Origin: Zobellia amurskyensis
GTDB lineage: Bacteria > Bacteroidota > Bacteroidia > Flavobacteriales > Flavobacteriaceae
Reading direction: 5' to 3'
Assembly: GCF_009725985.1 (NCBI RefSeq)
Contig: NZ_RCNR01000037.1
Location: 1 to 46,058, forward strand
DNA length: 46,058 nucleotides
Of this stretch, positions 5,911 through 12,673 are shown piece by piece. Below the pieces are notes generated by a model. The model was not told the origin of the DNA and did not search any database. It saw nothing but the letters and a program-made list of their open reading frames with translations. Numbering within the stretch: the stretch's first letter is position 1; each line of letters opens with the position of its first letter. The position numbers and the translations under genes are program-made.

Positions 5911-5941
5911 TTTGTGGTTTTAAAAATGATTTCTATATTTG
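5911..5941 (+). promoter_or_regulatory. trp operon promoter (TTTG-N19-TATATTTG)
   Basis: TTTG at 5911-5914 and TATATTTG at 5934-5941 are separated by 19 bases, an exact match to the Bacteroidota housekeeping promoter. Transcription should start around 5945-5947, at or just before the ATG of the leader peptide. Confidence 0.85.
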
Positions 5942-5946
5942 AACCA

Positions 5947-6003
5947 ATGAACAGAAATAACACAAATACTTGGTGGTGGAACAACTCTCGACAGATATCG
6001 TGA
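5947..6003 (+). CDS. trpL: trp operon leader peptide with three consecutive Trp codons
   Basis: The small ORF encodes MNRNNTNTWWWNNSRQIS and ends at TGA 6001-6003. Three TGG codons in a row (5971-5979), in an 18-residue peptide placed between a perfect promoter and an attenuator hairpin, identify it as the Trp-sensing leader. A ribosome stalled at these codons would cover segment 1 of the RNA (5985-5991) and free segment 2. The ATG is only 5 bases after the -7 box, so translation is probably from a leaderless or nearly leaderless mRNA. Confidence 0.9.
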   Translation: MNRNNTNTWWWNNSRQIS

Positions 6004-6049
6004 GCTAAGCATCATTGTAGTAAAACTATATAAAGGCTTGTCTTCACGA
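5985..6049 (+). promoter_or_regulatory. trp attenuator: pause hairpin and antiterminator
   Basis: Segment 1 CTCTCGA (5985-5991) pairs with segment 2 TCGTGAG (5998-6004), with one T-T mismatch and a 6-base loop. Segment 2 extended (TCGTGAG-CT-AAGC, 5998-6010) can instead pair with segment 3 (GCTT-GTC-TTCACGA, 6036-6049) through 7 + 4 base pairs around a small internal loop. The second pairing uses the left arm and loop of the terminator and therefore excludes it. This is the classical ribosome-controlled trp attenuation layout. Confidence 0.8.
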
Positions 6050-6060
6050 CAAGCCTTTTG
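6032..6060 (+). terminator. trp attenuator terminator hairpin
   Basis: A perfect 11-base-pair stem, AAAGGCTTGTC (6032-6042) / GACAAGCCTTT (6048-6058), closes a 5-base loop 20 bases before the trpE ATG. The downstream U tract is short (TTTTGCATTT), so leaky termination is likely. Confidence 0.85.
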
Positions 6061-6078
6061 CATTTGAATACTATCAAC

Positions 6079-7476
6079 ATGAAGTACAAATTAAAATCTT
6101 ATCACAAAAAAATTCTGGCAGATACTATTACCCCGGTTAGCGTCTATCTAAAAATTAGAGATCGTTTCCCAAATAGTATTTTACTGGAGAGTAGCGACTA
6201 CCATGCAACGGACAATAGTTTTTCGTATATCTGCTGCAACCCTATCGCCTCAATAAAAATCGAGAACGAAACTATTATTGAGCGTTTTCCTGACCAGACT
6301 TCCAATGAAACGGAAATCGACGCAGATACAGACGTCGTAAAAGTCCTTCATGATTTTAGCAAAAAGTTTGAAGCTGAAGAGAGCGATTTCAAATTTATAA
6401 ACAACGGTATTTTTGGATACATGGCCTACGATGCCGTTCGTTATTATGAAGATGTCAAAATCAGCAAAAAAGACAATTCCGTTACCATACCGGATATCTA
6501 TTATGCGGTCTATCAGAATATAATTGCCATAGACCATCATAAAAATGAAGCTTATATATTTGCGCATTGCTATAACTCAGAAGAAAACACGGCAGAAATT
6601 GCGCACATTTTAAACGTTCGCACTTTTGCTTCCTATGATTTTTCTTTGGATGGCGGTGCCGTTTCTAATTTAGAAGATGAAGAATATAGAGAGCATGTAA
6701 GATTGGCCAAGAAACACTGCCAACGCGGAGATGTTTTTCAATTGGTATTATCTCGCCGCTTTTCTCAAGGTTTTAAAGGAGATGAATTTAATGTATACCG
6801 AGCGTTACGTTCCGTAAACCCATCACCTTATTTATTTTACTTTGATTACGGCGATTTTAAAATTTTTGGAAGCTCACCGGAAGCTCAGCTTATCGTAAAA
6901 GACGGTAACGCAGAAATTCATCCTATAGCGGGGACATTTAAACGTACCGGTAATGATGAAAAAGACGCCATCCTAGCCAAAGAACTTACAGAAGACGACA
7001 AGGAGAACAGTGAACATGTAATGCTTGTTGACCTAGCCCGTAATGACTTAAGCCGAAACGGAAGCATGGTAGAAGTAACCAACTATAGAGAGGTGCAGTT
7101 CTTTTCCCATGTTATTCATTTGGTATCAAAAGTAATGGGCAAGAAGAAAAAGGATATCCCTACCATGAAAGTGGTGGCAGATACTTTTCCTGCAGGTACT
7201 TTGAGCGGCGCACCAAAACACATGGCCATGCAGCTTATTGAAAAGTATGAAAAGACCAGTCGTGGCTACTACGGTGGAGCTATAGGTTTTATGGATTTTG
7301 ACGGCAATTTTAACCACGCCATTATGATTCGTACTTTCTTAAGTAAAAATCACCAGTTACATTACCAAGCAGGTGCAGGTATTGTTGCTGCATCGGATCC
7401 AGAAGACGAACTTCAAGAAACGTATAACAAATTAGGTGCATTGACCAAGGCTTTGAAAATTGCTGAAACTATATAA
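6079..7476 (+). CDS. trpE: Anthranilate synthase component I
   Basis: The 465-residue protein starts at the ATG at 6079 (MKYKLKSYHKKI); an upstream in-frame TTG lies inside the terminator stem and is not the start. It converts chorismate to anthranilate with ammonia from TrpG. The LLESS motif near residue 35 is the Trp feedback site. The chorismate-binding domain shows EYREHVRLAKKHCQRGDVFQ, IAGTFKRTGND, LVDLARNDLSRNG, DTFPAGTLSGAPK and YYGGAIGF. It is the first structural gene of the operon, controlled by the attenuator in front of it, with trpG 2 bases downstream. Confidence 0.97.
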   Translation: MKYKLKSYHKKILADTITPVSVYLKIRDRFPNSILLESSDYHATDNSFSYICCNPIASIKIENETIIERFPDQTSNETEIDADTDVVKVLHDFSKKFEAEESDFKFINNGIFGYMAYDAVRYYEDVKISKKDNSVTIPDIYYAVYQNIIAIDHHKNEAYIFAHCYNSEENTAEIAHILNVRTFASYDFSLDGGAVSNLEDEEYREHVRLAKKHCQRGDVFQLVLSRRFSQGFKGDEFNVYRALRSVNPSPYLFYFDYGDFKIFGSSPEAQLIVKDGNAEIHPIAGTFKRTGNDEKDAILAKELTEDDKENSEHVMLVDLARNDLSRNGSMVEVTNYREVQFFSHVIHLVSKVMGKKKKDIPTMKVVADTFPAGTLSGAPKHMAMQLIEKYEKTSRGYYGGAIGFMDFDGNFNHAIMIRTFLSKNHQLHYQAGAGIVAASDPEDELQETYNKLGALTKALKIAETI

Positions 7477-7478
7477 CC

Positions 7479-8042
7479 ATGAAAAAGATTTTAGTAATAG
7501 ACAACTACGATAGCTTTACTTATAATTTGGTTCATTATTTAGAGGACTTAGATTGTCAAGTTATTGTAAAACGTAACGACCAATTGACCCTAGAAGAGGT
7601 TGATTCTTTTGAAAAAATTGTACTGTCACCAGGTCCAGGTATTCCAGATGAAGCAGGGCTTCTAAAGGAAATCATTGCCAAATACGCTCCTACAAAAAGT
7701 ATTTTTGGAGTCTGTTTAGGACAACAGGCCATATGTGAAGTCTTTGGAGGTTCCCTCATCAACTTAGAAGAAGTATATCACGGTATAGCTACGGAAATAA
7801 CGGTAACCAAAGACGATCCTAATTTTGAAGGCCTTCCTAAGAAGTTACTTGTTGGTCGGTATCATTCATGGGTAGTAGACCCAAATTTACCGCAAAGTCT
7901 AGAAGCCACTTCAGTAGATGAAAATGGTCAAATTATGTCACTTCGCCATAAAGTATACGATGTTTCTGCCGTTCAGTTTCATCCAGAATCAGTTTTGACT
8001 CCAGAAGGCAAAAAAATTCTTGCAAACTGGGTTAAGAACTAA
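7479..8042 (+). CDS. trpG: Anthranilate synthase component II (glutamine amidotransferase)
   Basis: This 187-residue class I glutamine amidotransferase supplies ammonia to TrpE. It has the oxyanion strand LSPGPGIPDEAGL, the nucleophile elbow GVCLGQQAICEVFGG with the catalytic Cys, RYHSWVV, and the catalytic His-Glu in VQFHPESVLTPEGKKIL. It is a stand-alone subunit, not fused to trpD. The 2-base gap to trpE implies translational coupling. PabA-type dual use with aminodeoxychorismate synthase is possible, as in other bacteria with one such subunit. Confidence 0.96.
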   Translation: MKKILVIDNYDSFTYNLVHYLEDLDCQVIVKRNDQLTLEEVDSFEKIVLSPGPGIPDEAGLLKEIIAKYAPTKSIFGVCLGQQAICEVFGGSLINLEEVYHGIATEITVTKDDPNFEGLPKKLLVGRYHSWVVDPNLPQSLEATSVDENGQIMSLRHKVYDVSAVQFHPESVLTPEGKKILANWVKN

Positions 8043-8099
8043 AATAAAATACAACACAGAATAGATTAAGTAGTACCCCATAGCAGTAAGAAAAGGACC

Positions 8100-9095
8100 A
8101 TGAAAGAAACATTGAACAAACTCATCAATCACGATATTCTTCCCAAAGAAGAAGCAAAACAAGTGTTGGTGAACATTGCAAAAGGAGATTACAACACCAG
8201 CCAGATAGCCGCATTTTTAACGGTTTATATGATGCGTAGCATTACTATAGACGAGCTAGAAGGCTTTCGTGATGCACTTCTAGAACTGTGTTTAGCAGTA
8301 GACTTATCAGACTACAATCCTATTGACCTTTGCGGAACGGGCGGCGATGGAAAGGACACTTTCAACATTTCTACTTTAGCATCGTTTGTAACAGCAGGTG
8401 CTGGCGTTCACGTTACCAAACATGGTAATTATGGCGTTTCTTCAAAATGCGGTAGTAGTAACGTAATGGAGTTCTTGGGAATCAAATTCAGCAATGAAGC
8501 AGATTTCCTTAAAAAATCTATCGAGGAAGCAGGTATCTGCGTCCTACACGCACCATTATTTCACCCCGCCATGAAAAATGTGGGACCAATCAGAAAAGAA
8601 TTAGGTGTTAAGACATTTTTCAACATGTTGGGGCCAATGGTAAATCCGGCTTTTCCTAAGAACCAAATGGTGGGTGTTTTCAATCTGGAACTTGCCCGAA
8701 TGTACGGTTATCTCTATCAAAACACAGATAAAAAATTTACCGTGCTTCATGCTTTGGATGGATATGATGAAATATCATTGACGGGGAATACAAAAACCAT
8801 TTCCAACAACAGCGAAAGTATGTTAAAACCTGAAGATTTTGGCGTTCAAAAAATACAACAGTCCCAGATTGTAGGCGGCGACTCCATTGAAGATTCCGCA
8901 CAAATATTTATGAATGTACTTCAAGGCCGTGGTACGGAAGCACAAAACAACGTGGTGTGCGCCAATGCGGGTATCGCCATTGCAACAGTAAATAACCTTA
9001 CTCCCAAGGAAGGTTTTGAAAAGGCCAAAGAATCACTTTTGGCCGGTAAAGGTTTAAATGCTTTAAGGAAGTTGCAAGAGTTGAGCAAAAATTAA
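8100..9095 (+). CDS. trpD: Anthranilate phosphoribosyltransferase
   Basis: The 331-residue enzyme joins anthranilate to PRPP. The signature DLCGTGGDGKDTFNIST at about 76-92 is the PRPP/Mg site; VTKHGNYGVSSKCGSSNVME follows, and the second Mg motif is DGYDE. Most TrpD proteins have KHGNR where this one has KHGNY; I believe the variant is common in Bacteroidota. The 57-base gap after trpG has no terminator or promoter that I can recognise, so the gene belongs to the operon. Confidence 0.96.
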   Translation: MKETLNKLINHDILPKEEAKQVLVNIAKGDYNTSQIAAFLTVYMMRSITIDELEGFRDALLELCLAVDLSDYNPIDLCGTGGDGKDTFNISTLASFVTAGAGVHVTKHGNYGVSSKCGSSNVMEFLGIKFSNEADFLKKSIEEAGICVLHAPLFHPAMKNVGPIRKELGVKTFFNMLGPMVNPAFPKNQMVGVFNLELARMYGYLYQNTDKKFTVLHALDGYDEISLTGNTKTISNNSESMLKPEDFGVQKIQQSQIVGGDSIEDSAQIFMNVLQGRGTEAQNNVVCANAGIAIATVNNLTPKEGFEKAKESLLAGKGLNALRKLQELSKN

Positions 9096-9116
9096 AATAG
9101 TTTTCAAGAGCGAAAC

Positions 9117-9899
9117 ATGAACATTCTAGATAAAATAGTAGCGGACAAACGCAAAGAAGTAGACTTGAAAAAATCTCTTATTCCGGTTTCACAATTAGAA
9201 AACTCGGTCTTGTTCTCACGTCAAACGGCTTCTTTGAGCAATGCACTTCGTAATAGCAATAGCGGTATTATTGCGGAGCATAAGCGTCGTTCTCCGTCAA
9301 AATCGGAAATCAACCAAGGGTTGAACGTTCAAGATGTAGCTACAGGATATGAAAATGCCGGAGTTTGTGGCATGTCCGTTTTAACGGATGGAAAATATTT
9401 TGGAGGTTCTTTGGATGATTTACTATTAGCTCGTGCAGCAGTACAAATGCCTTTATTGCGTAAAGAGTTCATTATAGATGAATATCAAATTTTAGAAGCG
9501 AAAGCTCACGGAGCGGATGTTATCCTTTTAATAGCGGCCATTTTATCCAAAGAAGAAATAAAAACGTTTTCAGAATTGGCAAAAAGTCTTGACTTAGATG
9601 TATTATTAGAAGTACATAACGAAGCCGAATTACATAAAAGTATTATGCCCAGCCTAGATATGTTGGGGGTAAATAATAGAAACCTTAAAACTTTTGAAGT
9701 TAGCTTAGAGACCAGCAAATCGCTTTCGCAGCTAATTCCTGATGAGTTTGTAAAGGTTTCCGAAAGCGGCATCAGTTCCATTGAAGCTATCAAAGATTTA
9801 AAACCTTACGGTTATCAAGGTTTTCTGATTGGAGAAAACTTCATGAAGACGGACAACCCTGGCGAGCACGCCAAGAAATTCATAAAACAATTGTCGTAA
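9117..9899 (+). CDS. trpC: Indole-3-glycerol phosphate synthase
   Basis: The 260-residue TIM barrel makes indole-3-glycerol phosphate from CdRP. Catalytic and binding motifs are visible: IIAEHKRRSPSKSEIN (with E and K in the first strand), GMSVLTDGKYFGGSLDDL, LLRKEFIIDEYQI (second catalytic Lys), LLEVHNEAEL, GVNNRNLKTF, and SESGISSIEAI. It is a stand-alone protein, whereas E. coli has a TrpC-TrpF fusion. It lies 21 bases after trpD. Confidence 0.96.
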   Translation: MNILDKIVADKRKEVDLKKSLIPVSQLENSVLFSRQTASLSNALRNSNSGIIAEHKRRSPSKSEINQGLNVQDVATGYENAGVCGMSVLTDGKYFGGSLDDLLLARAAVQMPLLRKEFIIDEYQILEAKAHGADVILLIAAILSKEEIKTFSELAKSLDLDVLLEVHNEAELHKSIMPSLDMLGVNNRNLKTFEVSLETSKSLSQLIPDEFVKVSESGISSIEAIKDLKPYGYQGFLIGENFMKTDNPGEHAKKFIKQLS

Positions 9900-9915
9900 T
9901 TGCGACCCAATAGCG

Positions 9916-10608
9916 ATGACTAAAATGGACTATCAATACACAACTAAAAAAGACGGGCCTTCTACCATAGAAAGCGCCCCGCTTAAATTGAAGGTGTGTG
10001 GTATGAAGAAGAATACATCTGAAATTGCCAACCTTAAACCAGATTACCTTGGTTTTATATTTTGGGATAAATCCAAAAGGCATTTTTCGGGTCCGATGAA
10101 ACCCATCCCACATACCGTTAAAAAAGTAGGTGTATTTGTAGACGCCAGTATTGAAACAGTTGTTGCCCGTATTCAAGATTACGATCTTTTATTGGTTCAA
10201 TTACATGGTTCTGAGAGTCCTGAGTATTGTGCACAGCTTAAAGCAAAAGTTAAGCAGGTACAAATTATAAAAGTGTTCTCAATCAAGAACGATTTTGATT
10301 TTGACGCCTTGAAGCCCTACGAATCCGTGTGCGATTTCTACCTTTTTGATACCAAGGGAGAATTACCGGGCGGTAATGGTTATGCTTTTGATTGGGGTGT
10401 TCTAAAAGAATACCCGTCTACCAAACCCTATTTTCTTAGTGGCGGTATAGGTCTAAACGAAATAGATTCCCTAAAAGAATTCATGAAAAGACCAGAAGCA
10501 AAATACTGTCACGCTATTGACGTGAACAGTAAGTTTGAAATAGAACCCGGGTTCAAAGATGTTGAGAAAGTAAAAGAATTTAAAAAAGAACTTGGCCTAA
10601 AACAGTAG
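9916..10608 (+). CDS. trpF: Phosphoribosylanthranilate isomerase
   Basis: The 230-residue barrel isomerises PRA to Cd[15 protein letters not shown] carries the catalytic Cys; [46 protein letters not shown] (catalytic Asp) and [12 protein letters not shown] follow. It has about 23 residues before the usual N-terminus (start [14 protein letters not shown]); since no ATG lies closer to the barrel, this short extension is probably real. It is 16 bases after trpC. Confidence 0.95.
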
Positions 10609-10639
10609 TACATCTGTTTACGCCATTTACCAAATACGA

Positions 10640-11830
10640 ATGAATATGAAAACGTATCAAGCGGACGAAAAAGGATATTACGGGGAGTTTGGAGGTGCTT
10701 TTATTCCTGAGATGCTTTACCCAAATACAGAAGAGCTTCGGCAGAACTATATTCGCATTATGCAAGAACCTTCTTTTAAGGAAGAGTTTGACCAGTTGTT
10801 GAAAGATTATGTAGGCCGCCCTACCCCACTCTACTTTGCGGACAGACTCTCAAAAAAATACAACACAAAAATATATCTTAAGCGAGAAGACCTTTGTCAC
10901 ACAGGAGCACACAAGGTCAACAATACTATTGGTCAGATTCTTATGGCCAAGAAATTGGGCAAAAACAGAATTATAGCCGAAACAGGTGCCGGACAACATG
11001 GTGTGGCAACTGCAACGGTCTGTGCGCTTATGGGCATTGAATGCATCGTGTACATGGGCGAAATAGATATTGCCAGACAGGCACCTAACGTAGCCCGTAT
11101 GAAAATGCTAGGAGCAGAAGTTAGACCTGCACTTTCAGGGAGTAGAACTTTAAAAGATGCCACTAACGAGGCAATTCGTGATTGGATCAATAATCCAGTA
11201 GATACCCATTATATTATTGGTAGTGTGGTGGGACCTCATCCTTATCCTGATATGGTAGCTAGGTTTCAATCCGTCATTTCGGAAGAAATCAAATGGCAAT
11301 TAAAAGAAAAAGAAGGTCGTGAAAACCCCGACTATGTAGTGGCTTGTGTTGGTGGAGGAAGTAACGCTGCAGGCGCATATTATCACTATTTAGACAACCC
11401 GGATGTTGGTATCATAGCTGTGGAAGCGGCAGGAAAAGGAATTGACACAGGCGAAAGTGCAGCTACATCGGCCTTGGGCAAAGTGGGTATTATTCACGGT
11501 AGCAAAACCTTGTTAATGCAGACCGATGACGGACAGATTACAGAACCATACTCTATTTCTGCAGGATTGGATTACCCTGGAGTTGGGCCTATGCATGCCA
11601 ATTTGTTTGCATCGGGCCGTGGAGAATTTATATCGATTACGGATGAGGACGCCATGAATGCCGGATTGCTTTTATGTAAAACGGAAGGTATTATCCCTGC
11701 TATAGAATCTTCGCATGCATTGGCAATTCTTGAGCACAGAAAATTTAAGCCTGAAGATGTAGTGGTGATTAACCTATCCGGTCGTGGCGACAAAGACCTC
11801 AACAATTATATTGAATTTTTTAATCTATAA
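10640..11830 (+). CDS. trpB: Tryptophan synthase beta chain
   Basis: The 396-residue PLP enzyme condenses indole and serine to Trp. [13 protein letters not shown] contains the PLP Lys, [14 protein letters not shown] the catalytic loop, [13 protein letters not shown] the phosphate cup, and [13 protein letters not shown] the C-terminal pocket. It is a standard TrpB1 of normal length. A second ATG two codons in ([19 protein letters not shown]) could be the actual start. The gene is followed by a 78-base gap before trpA. Confidence 0.97.
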
Positions 11831-11908
11831 AATCTCCGGATCAAGTTATCCAAAGTAATTCGGATTAAACTTGTCCATCCTTAATAAAAGGAAATAGCAC
11901 TTGAAACT

Positions 11909-12673
11909 ATGGCTAATAGAATAAAAGAAAAACTAAACGAAGACGGAAAACTACTTTCTATCTATTTTACCGCGGGTTACCCCAAATTAGGTGATACCGT
12001 AGAAATTATTCAACAGTTAGAGAAAAACGGTGTTGATATGATTGAAATAGGGCTTCCTTTCAGTGATCCACTAGCAGATGGCCCTACCATTCAACAAAGT
12101 TCCACTGCAGCTCTTAAAAATGGTATGACTACCGAAATTCTTTTTGACCAACTGAAGGGAATTCGCCAGTCCGTTTCCATTCCATTAATCATCATGGGAT
12201 ATTTCAACCCGATGCTACAATATGGAGTTGAGGCTTTCTGTAAAAAATGTCAGGAAATTGGTATAGACGGACTTATCATACCCGATCTACCGGTAGATGT
12301 ATATCATGACGAGTATCAAGAAACATTTGAAAAATACGGTCTTATAAATGTATTTTTGATTACGCCACAAACTTCGGATGAACGTATTCGTTTTATAGAT
12401 TCGGTTTCAAACGGATTTATTTATATGGTGAGCTCTGCAAGTGTTACAGGAGCCCAATCTGGTTTTGGTGATGAACAGCAAGCTTACTTCCAACGCATTG
12501 CGGATATGAAATTGAATAACCCTCAAATTGTTGGTTTTGGAATAAGTAACTCCGAAACTTTTGAGCAAGCTACGAAATCTTCAAAAGGGGCAATTATTGG
12601 CTCTGCTTTTATCAAGCATTTAAACGGCCATGGCGTTGACGGAATTTCAACTTTTACTAAAACTATTAGATAA
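11909..12673 (+). CDS. trpA: Tryptophan synthase alpha chain
   Basis: The 254-residue TIM barrel cleaves indole-3-glycerol phosphate and channels indole to TrpB. The catalytic Glu and Asp sit in MIEIGLPFSDPLADGP, followed by IIMGYFNPMLQYG, IPDLPVD, IYMVSSASVTGAQ and VGFGISNSETF. It is the last gene of the operon. Only a weak 5-base-pair hairpin (around 12699-12717) follows, so transcripts may continue into the small gene and the terminator at 12941. Confidence 0.96.
   Translation: MANRIKEKLNEDGKLLSIYFTAGYPKLGDTVEIIQQLEKNGVDMIEIGLPFSDPLADGPTIQQSSTAALKNGMTTEILFDQLKGIRQSVSIPLIIMGYFNPMLQYGVEAFCKKCQEIGIDGLIIPDLPVDVYHDEYQETFEKYGLINVFLITPQTSDERIRFIDSVSNGFIYMVSSASVTGAQSGFGDEQQAYFQRIADMKLNNPQIVGFGISNSETFEQATKSSKGAIIGSAFIKHLNGHGVDGISTFTKTIR

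Follow-up and report, generated by a model that had tools for sequence, protein, structure and literature searches.

A Bacteroid-trp attenuator with a predicted near-leaderless start ahead of the trp operon of Zobellia amurskyensis

The DNA analyzed here, referred to as the window, was a stretch of 46,058 nucleotides from Zobellia amurskyensis, whose forward strand carries a trp gene cluster and, ahead of it, the leader features listed in Table 1. The gene order E-G-D-C-F-B-A given in a preliminary description of this DNA was borne out by the Pfam families, and the closest TrpE recovered in a search of genome contigs was that of Zobellia barbeyronii, at 97% identity. The preliminary description had also placed an 18-codon ORF with WWW and a set of hairpins between a promoter and trpE; all of these features were present, and all were conserved in relatives. 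The possible upstream element, TTTG, is separated by 19 nt from the -7 box TATATTTG, and we take TTTG or TTG to be the form of the -33 element. Between the box and the ATG of the leader ORF lies a spacer of 5 nt (AACCA), the shortness of which had been overlooked. The T run after the terminator is short, consisting of TTTT followed by GCATTT, and 20 nt separate the terminator from trpE. The pattern of TATATTTG, 4 to 8 nt, ATG, 21 nt, and TGGTGG occurred once in the organism's own 5.14-Mb genome and not at all when that genome was read backwards. In F. johnsoniae, the -33 motif is reported to be far less evident than the -7 box (PMC6847099).

Table 1. Features of the trp leader and operon in the window
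Feature	Position	Strand	Basis
Possible -33 element, TTTG	5911-5914	+	sequence
-7 promoter box, TATATTTG	5934-5941	+	sigmaA consensus TAnnTTTG
Predicted transcription start, 0-1 nt before AUG	5946-5947	+	inferred from promoter spacing
Leader peptide ORF, MNRNNTNTWWWNNSRQIS; 18 codons plus TGA at 6001-6003, ATG at 5947	5947-6003	+	direct reading
Three adjacent Trp codons (codons 9-11)	5971-5979	+	direct reading
1:2 (pause/protector) stem; 5967-5978 with 6010-6022, tip 5985-5991 with 5998-6004	5967-6022	+	folding
Antiterminator; 5998-6004 and 6006-6010 with 6036-6042 and 6044-6049	5998-6049	+	folding; covariation
Intrinsic terminator hairpin, 11 bp; 6032-6042/6048-6058, loop TTCAC, then TTTT	6032-6058	+	folding; covariation
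trpEGDCFBA cluster	6079-12673	+	ORFs and Pfam families
trpE	6079-7476	+	ORF and Pfam
trpG	7479-8042	+	ORF and Pfam; name from broad family plus position
trpD	8100-9095	+	ORF and Pfam; name from broad family plus position
trpC	9117-9899	+	ORF and Pfam
trpF	9916-10608	+	ORF and Pfam
trpB	10640-11830	+	ORF and Pfam; name from broad family plus position
trpA	11909-12673	+	ORF and Pfam

Folding of the whole leader gave a z score of -3.76, and none of 200 shuffled sequences was as stable. The proposed 11-bp terminator was recovered by folding, and the proposed antiterminator, 5998-6010 with 6036-6049, was the best fold of positions 5980 to 6052 (z, -2.54; 4 of 200 shuffles as stable). The pause hairpin proposed at 5985-5991/5998-6004 was present, but it made up only the apical part of a longer 1:2 stem, overlooked before, in which the 5' strand takes in two of the Trp codons and most of the third. 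Segment 2 (UCGUGAGCUAAGC, 5998-6010) has as its antiterminator partner GCUUGUC UUCACGA (6036-6049), which spans part of the terminator 5' arm, the terminator loop, and the first bases of the 3' arm.

The influence of the ribosome was modeled with equilibrium folds of growing chains, using assumed ribosome edges and ten 3' end lengths. With the first or the third Trp codon occupying the A site of a stalled ribosome, the best fold at 3' ends 6049 to 6054 was the antiterminator with all 11 of its pairs, and the terminator was best from 3' end 6056 on. When the ribosome stood at the stop codon, no antiterminator pairs formed at any of the ten lengths. Without a ribosome, the 1:2 stem was complete at 6030 and 6040, the antiterminator was best at 6049 to 6052, and the 1:2 stem together with the terminator was best from 6054. 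Since stalling does not keep the terminator from prevailing at 6056 and beyond, and since the antiterminator wins at 6049 to 6052 with no ribosome present, the choice between the two must be kinetic. In these model folds, the geometry of the window permits the classical attenuation scheme, and the earlier proposal of mutually exclusive helices, with a ribosome at either WWW or the stop codon, fits the equilibrium folds with the ribosome edges assumed.

A scan against Rfam 15 (cmscan) showed that positions 5927 to 6042 match the RNA family Bacteroid-trp (RF01692) along the whole model (1 to 131), with a score of 51.8 bits, which is just 2.8 bits above the gathering cutoff of 49; no T-box or any other Rfam family reached its cutoff in the window. 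The match lies upstream of tryptophan biosynthesis genes in a member of the Bacteroidota, as the Pfam cluster and the Zobellia-like TrpE indicate, and this is the setting of the family. Bacteroid-trp was catalogued by Weinberg et al. in 2010 (PMC2864571), and in F. psychrophilum it has been described as conserved before the trp operon and likened to the E. coli trp leader (PMC6414381). The attenuator therefore belongs to an already known family, a membership that the preliminary description had not recognized, and it is real, conserved, and well formed. A novel family was ruled out by the RF01692 match, and the Rfam scan gave no sign of protein or T-box control. Since the match stops at 6042, in the terminator 5' arm, the full terminator and the antiterminator lie outside the coverage of Rfam. 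At the other end, the window differs from the family model in that the first ~19 of the 116 matched bases (5927-5945) hold the -7 box and are probably untranscribed; with a probable near-leaderless start, the 5' end of the match would here be promoter and not RNA.

In a Flavobacteriaceae sample, 208 of 299 genomes matched RF01692 at an E value of ≤0.001, and 184 were over the cutoff. Matches were found in 33 of 196 genomes in a sample of the order (5 of them beyond the family), in 30 of 296 genomes in a sample of the phylum (2 of them beyond the family), and in 1 of 14 control genomes, that of Bacteroides ihuae; these three samples of family, order, and phylum overlap, and the stricter filters of the genome searches lose weak RF01692 matches.

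Leaders were compared across loci chosen either by TrpE or by Rfam. The TrpE-chosen set comprised the nearest 80 of at least 351 confirmed loci, with TrpE identities from 97% down to 74%, and it therefore speaks for near and not for distant relatives. A script searched up to 900 nt before trpE for an ATG-initiated ORF with TGGTGG and, downstream of it, a near-perfect stem with a T-rich tail. The preliminary description had staked the attenuator on the persistence of the Trp codons and stems in relatives, and this layout was kept at all 80 nearest TrpE-chosen loci, each of which had a leader ORF with two or three adjacent Trp codons and a terminator. Three adjacent TGG codons were present at 79 of these loci and two at the remaining one, the first Trp was preceded by eight codons at 77, and the stop codon was TGA at 69, TAG at 9, and TAA at 2. 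Among the 235 distinct leaders from all sources, 229 had three TGG codons and 6 had two. The Rfam-chosen loci came from the 208 family matches, 30 having been obtained as loci and 113 more among the matches listed. Seven of the Rfam-chosen loci were missed by the script and left out of the leader counts and of the spacer, alignment, and covariation work; all seven carry such a leader, which begins with GTG or TTG instead of ATG in six (L167, L181, L192, L203, L228, and L259) and has a terminator rejected by the script in the seventh, L241. In L167, L228, and L259, the GTG was seen by eye to sit 5 nt behind a TAnnTTTG box. One further locus, L113, for which the wrong stretch had been taken, counted as no match. 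The alignment columns conserved at 90% or more were those of the start codon, two A residues before the Trp codons, the Trp codons themselves, the segment-2 core, and the terminator.

For covariation analysis, the 235 distinct leaders were thinned by similarity to 137 and aligned with MAFFT. An alignment of relatives had been suggested as a check on the two alternative stems, and in it the terminator and the antiterminator covaried and the Trp codons were kept. The terminator showed two-sided changes in 9 of 11 pairs, with 99.0% of cells paired, compared with a mean of 1.9 pairs in 500 shuffles, none of which was as high on any of the five measures, and with 6 pairs in the best slid version; relatedness inflates such counts, and related sequences may beat shuffles even without structure. 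The antiterminator was scored with an extra basal pair, 5997-6050, which cannot form in the window and is absent in 72 of the 137 rows, and it showed two-sided changes in 8 of 12 pairs, compared with a mean of 3.6 in 500 shuffles, one of which was as high, and with 6 in the best slid version. Its cells were paired at 83.2%, compared with 82.4% in shuffles, the core helix reaching 89.7% and the second helix 74.1%. Conservation of the 1:2 stem was weaker than that of the other two: two-sided changes were seen in 10 of 18 pairs and 63.7% of cells were paired, and 41 of 500 shuffles reached its count of two-sided changes and 391 its pair types. Slid controls fell below all three stems on cells paired and on covariation score. 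In addition, the helix between segment 2 and the terminator was scored against 20 shuffles per leader; among the 235 leaders, it beat the shuffled mean in 98.7% and every shuffle in 37%. The best such helix included TCGTGA in 209 of the 235 leaders, its partner TCACGA being made up of the terminator loop and the start of the 3' arm, and the stop codon overlapped the best segment-2 helix in 149 leaders and did not overlap it in 86. By eye, the near-invariant UCGUGA core was altered in the aligned leaders L212, L136, and L144, in L212 together with its terminator partner.

Taken as a whole, the leader is very probably a ribosome-mediated transcription attenuator of the trp operon, of the Bacteroid-trp type, that starts near the AUG and senses Trp through WWW. 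The comparison of sequences gives good support to ribosome-mediated trp attenuation; the anatomy, the conservation, the covariation of terminator and antiterminator, and the nearness of the promoter box to the AUG are observed, while the exact point at which transcription begins, the stalling, the termination, and the Trp response are inferred. In the proposed scheme, the transcript would begin at the AUG of the leader ORF or one base ahead of it. When charged tRNA-Trp is scarce, a ribosome would stall on WWW and break the 1:2 stem, and segment 2, thus freed, would pair with 6036-6049, so that transcription would continue into trpEGDCFBA. With Trp in good supply, the ribosome would advance to the UGA at 6001, a codon within segment 2, and would cover that segment, and the terminator would form. 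In the absence of translation, segment 2 would be held by the 1:2 stem, and the terminator would again form.

The E. coli trpL leader likewise has a leader ORF with adjacent Trp codons, a 1:2 stem, mutually exclusive antiterminator and terminator helices, and a stop codon at segment 2. It has two Trp codons, whereas the window has three, and here, unlike in E. coli, the start is predicted at the AUG and the antiterminator core draws on the terminator loop and the start of the 3' arm; the likeness is therefore one of working and not of sequence.

TRAP and T-box control of trp genes occur elsewhere, and the switch might conceivably sense a nascent peptide or a ligand, as an arrest peptide or through a protein or tRNA bound to the RNA, instead of the speed of Trp decoding. 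The residues around WWW are fairly constant, often NTWWW..LR, as such a switch would have it, but the two residues ahead of WWW differ among relatives, the most conserved columns of the alignment are those listed above, and the Rfam scan of the window returned RF01692 only; sensing of this kind is very unlikely. Still less credence is due to the idea that the antiterminator is incidental, the hairpin being a plain terminator and Trp control arising only through loss of coupling or through another regulator. The antiterminator core hardly varies and its gain in paired cells over shuffles is small, both of which would suit that idea, but two-sided changes at the level found were matched by a single shuffle in 500, and both core strands change together in rows such as L212. 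Decoding of WWW, with a functional antiterminator, is accordingly the reading kept here. The attenuator itself confirms a catalogued RNA family, and the comparative support for an antiterminator outside the Rfam model appears to be a modest new element.

The spacing of the promoter points to an unusual way of starting translation of the leader. In F. psychrophilum, the sigmaA box TAnnTTTG is reported at -12 to -5 (PMC9723704), and in F. johnsoniae, a promoter was deemed probable when its -7 element lay 4 or 5 nt from the start, and adenines are reported to favor initiation (PMC6847099). With this flavobacterial spacing, the 5-nt spacer of the window predicts a start at 5946 or 5947. Among 236 distinct leaders, a perfect -7 box was found within 60 nt of the ATG in 231 and a box with one mismatch in 5, the box picked being the nearest perfect one, a choice that leaves room for doubt in L027 and L030 at least. 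The 231 spacers were bimodal, with 94 of 4 to 8 nt (57 of them exactly 5 nt), 15 of 9 to 12 nt, 115 of 14 to 22 nt, and 7 longer. Because the RF01692 model covers the stretch of the box and so biases Rfam-chosen loci towards a -7 box, the 80 TrpE-chosen leaders were counted separately; 79 had a perfect box within 60 nt, and the spacer was 4 to 8 nt in 61 (60 perfect boxes and 1 with a mismatch) and 14 nt or more in 19. A spacer of 4 to 8 nt would leave a 5' untranslated region of about 0 to 4 nt, or 0 to 1 nt in the window.

The two bases before the ATG were a pyrimidine in 97% and A in 81% of the 57 leaders with a spacer of 5 nt, and a pyrimidine in 95% and A in 95% of the 20 leaders with a spacer of 7 nt, as would be expected if transcription began at that A. 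In the class of 14 to 22 nt, positions -1 to -12 were 58 to 82% A, which fits the initiation-favoring adenines of F. johnsoniae, and in the short-spacer class the promoter takes the place of this A-rich stretch. As a control, 644 ORFs of at least 120 amino acids, with uncurated starts, were taken from the 80 loci and the window. For 78 of them a perfect box lay no more than 60 nt away, at 4 to 8 nt in 3 and at 14 to 30 nt in 65; 46 of the 78 had an identical spacer and are probably one gene across many species.

The leader ORF might instead not be leaderless, with transcription starting further upstream or several nucleotides off and the AUG read behind an ordinary leader. Such a start is favored by the scarcity of leaderless mRNAs in the phylum: 5.5% of the mRNAs examined in F. 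psychrophilum are reported as leaderless (PMC9723704), 87% of the F. johnsoniae transcripts with a probable promoter are reported to have leaders longer than 10 nt (PMC6847099), and about 3.7% of 5' untranslated regions in B. thetaiotaomicron are reported to be shorter than 10 nt. It is nevertheless unlikely, in view of the box lying so close to the ATG in 61 of the 80 TrpE-chosen leaders, the pyrimidine-A before the ATG at spacers of 5 and 7 nt, and the replacement of the A-rich stretch by the promoter. A near-leaderless trp leader has a counterpart in trpLE(G) of the alphaproteobacterium Sinorhizobium meliloti, whose RNA starts with the trpL ATG and is reported as leaderless (PMC7298713); the start is only predicted here, and the S. 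meliloti system differs in its 14-amino-acid peptide and its operon. Trans-acting roles have been reported for the S. meliloti trpL peptide and RNA (PMC7298713). No leaderless trp leader from the Bacteroidota came up in a literature search, which covered mostly open papers and is weak evidence of absence.

The near-leaderless state, defined as a spacer of ≤8 nt, was mapped on a tree built with FastTree from 134 TrpE rows, with 78 rows near-leaderless and 55 not. Parsimony gave six changes, three of them forced by well-supported branches, the exact number being unsure because of long branches and many open forks. In the clade that holds the TrpE of the window (support, 86), 68 of 69 rows were near-leaderless, the exception being L046 with a spacer of 30 nt. 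The clade of Zobellia, Maribacter, Arenibacter, and Muricauda is likely to operate its trp attenuator through leaderless initiation, with a start at or about 1 base before the AUG and without the A-rich upstream signal that aids flavobacterial ribosomes elsewhere, and leadered and near-leaderless forms of this one attenuator are likely to have replaced one another several times. With such a start, a ribosome could engage the transcript once its 5' end is exposed, and attenuation demands prompt and regular ribosome loading. A near-leaderless start in one clade is a probable, if modest, new element. If it is real, the leaders provide paired natural switches with and without a 5' untranslated region, in a phylum whose mRNAs lack Shine-Dalgarno sequences, and the series of leadered and near-leaderless forms is natural material on how the mode of initiation bears on ribosome-polymerase coupling.

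Seven of the 80 TrpE-chosen loci (L034, L075, L077, L079, L082, L095, and L096) had a gap of 380 to 467 nt between the terminator and trpE, and by eye these inserts look coding and alike. A scan of L075 alone identified its insert (2676-2960) as encoding a 94-amino-acid GIY-YIG domain protein (PF01541; 5.6e-17). The L095 insert is flanked by 46-nt inverted repeats (78%), and none were reported for the inserts of L034, L075, L077, and L079. The inserts are perhaps a small mobile element settling in the trp leader.

Candidate leaders for other amino acids were also seen in the organism's own genome. Near ilvD and the homoserine dehydrogenase gene, single-residue runs gave no convincing leader ORF within the few hundred bases before the domain match, which for homoserine dehydrogenase are coding. 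Ahead of hisG (L261, contig C57) lies a likely His leader peptide, MKNRTTHHHIHTHAQAR when read from an inner ATG, with a strong terminator, and by eye an imperfect -7 box, TACTTTTA, stands 7 nt before the inner ATG; the corresponding pattern matched 184 of 199 genomes and is far too loose to be informative. 5' elements of pheA and hisG have been noted in the Flavobacteriaceae (PMC9723704). Ahead of a prephenate dehydratase gene (L264, 1304-1375; contig C13) a probable Phe leader peptide, MTKQFFFNGFYFYFFFKRGTGLL, is encoded, with a terminator of stem GTCCCG/CGGGAC after it, and a similar Phe-rich pattern was found in 7 of 199 family genomes, including the organism's own and one other of its genus.
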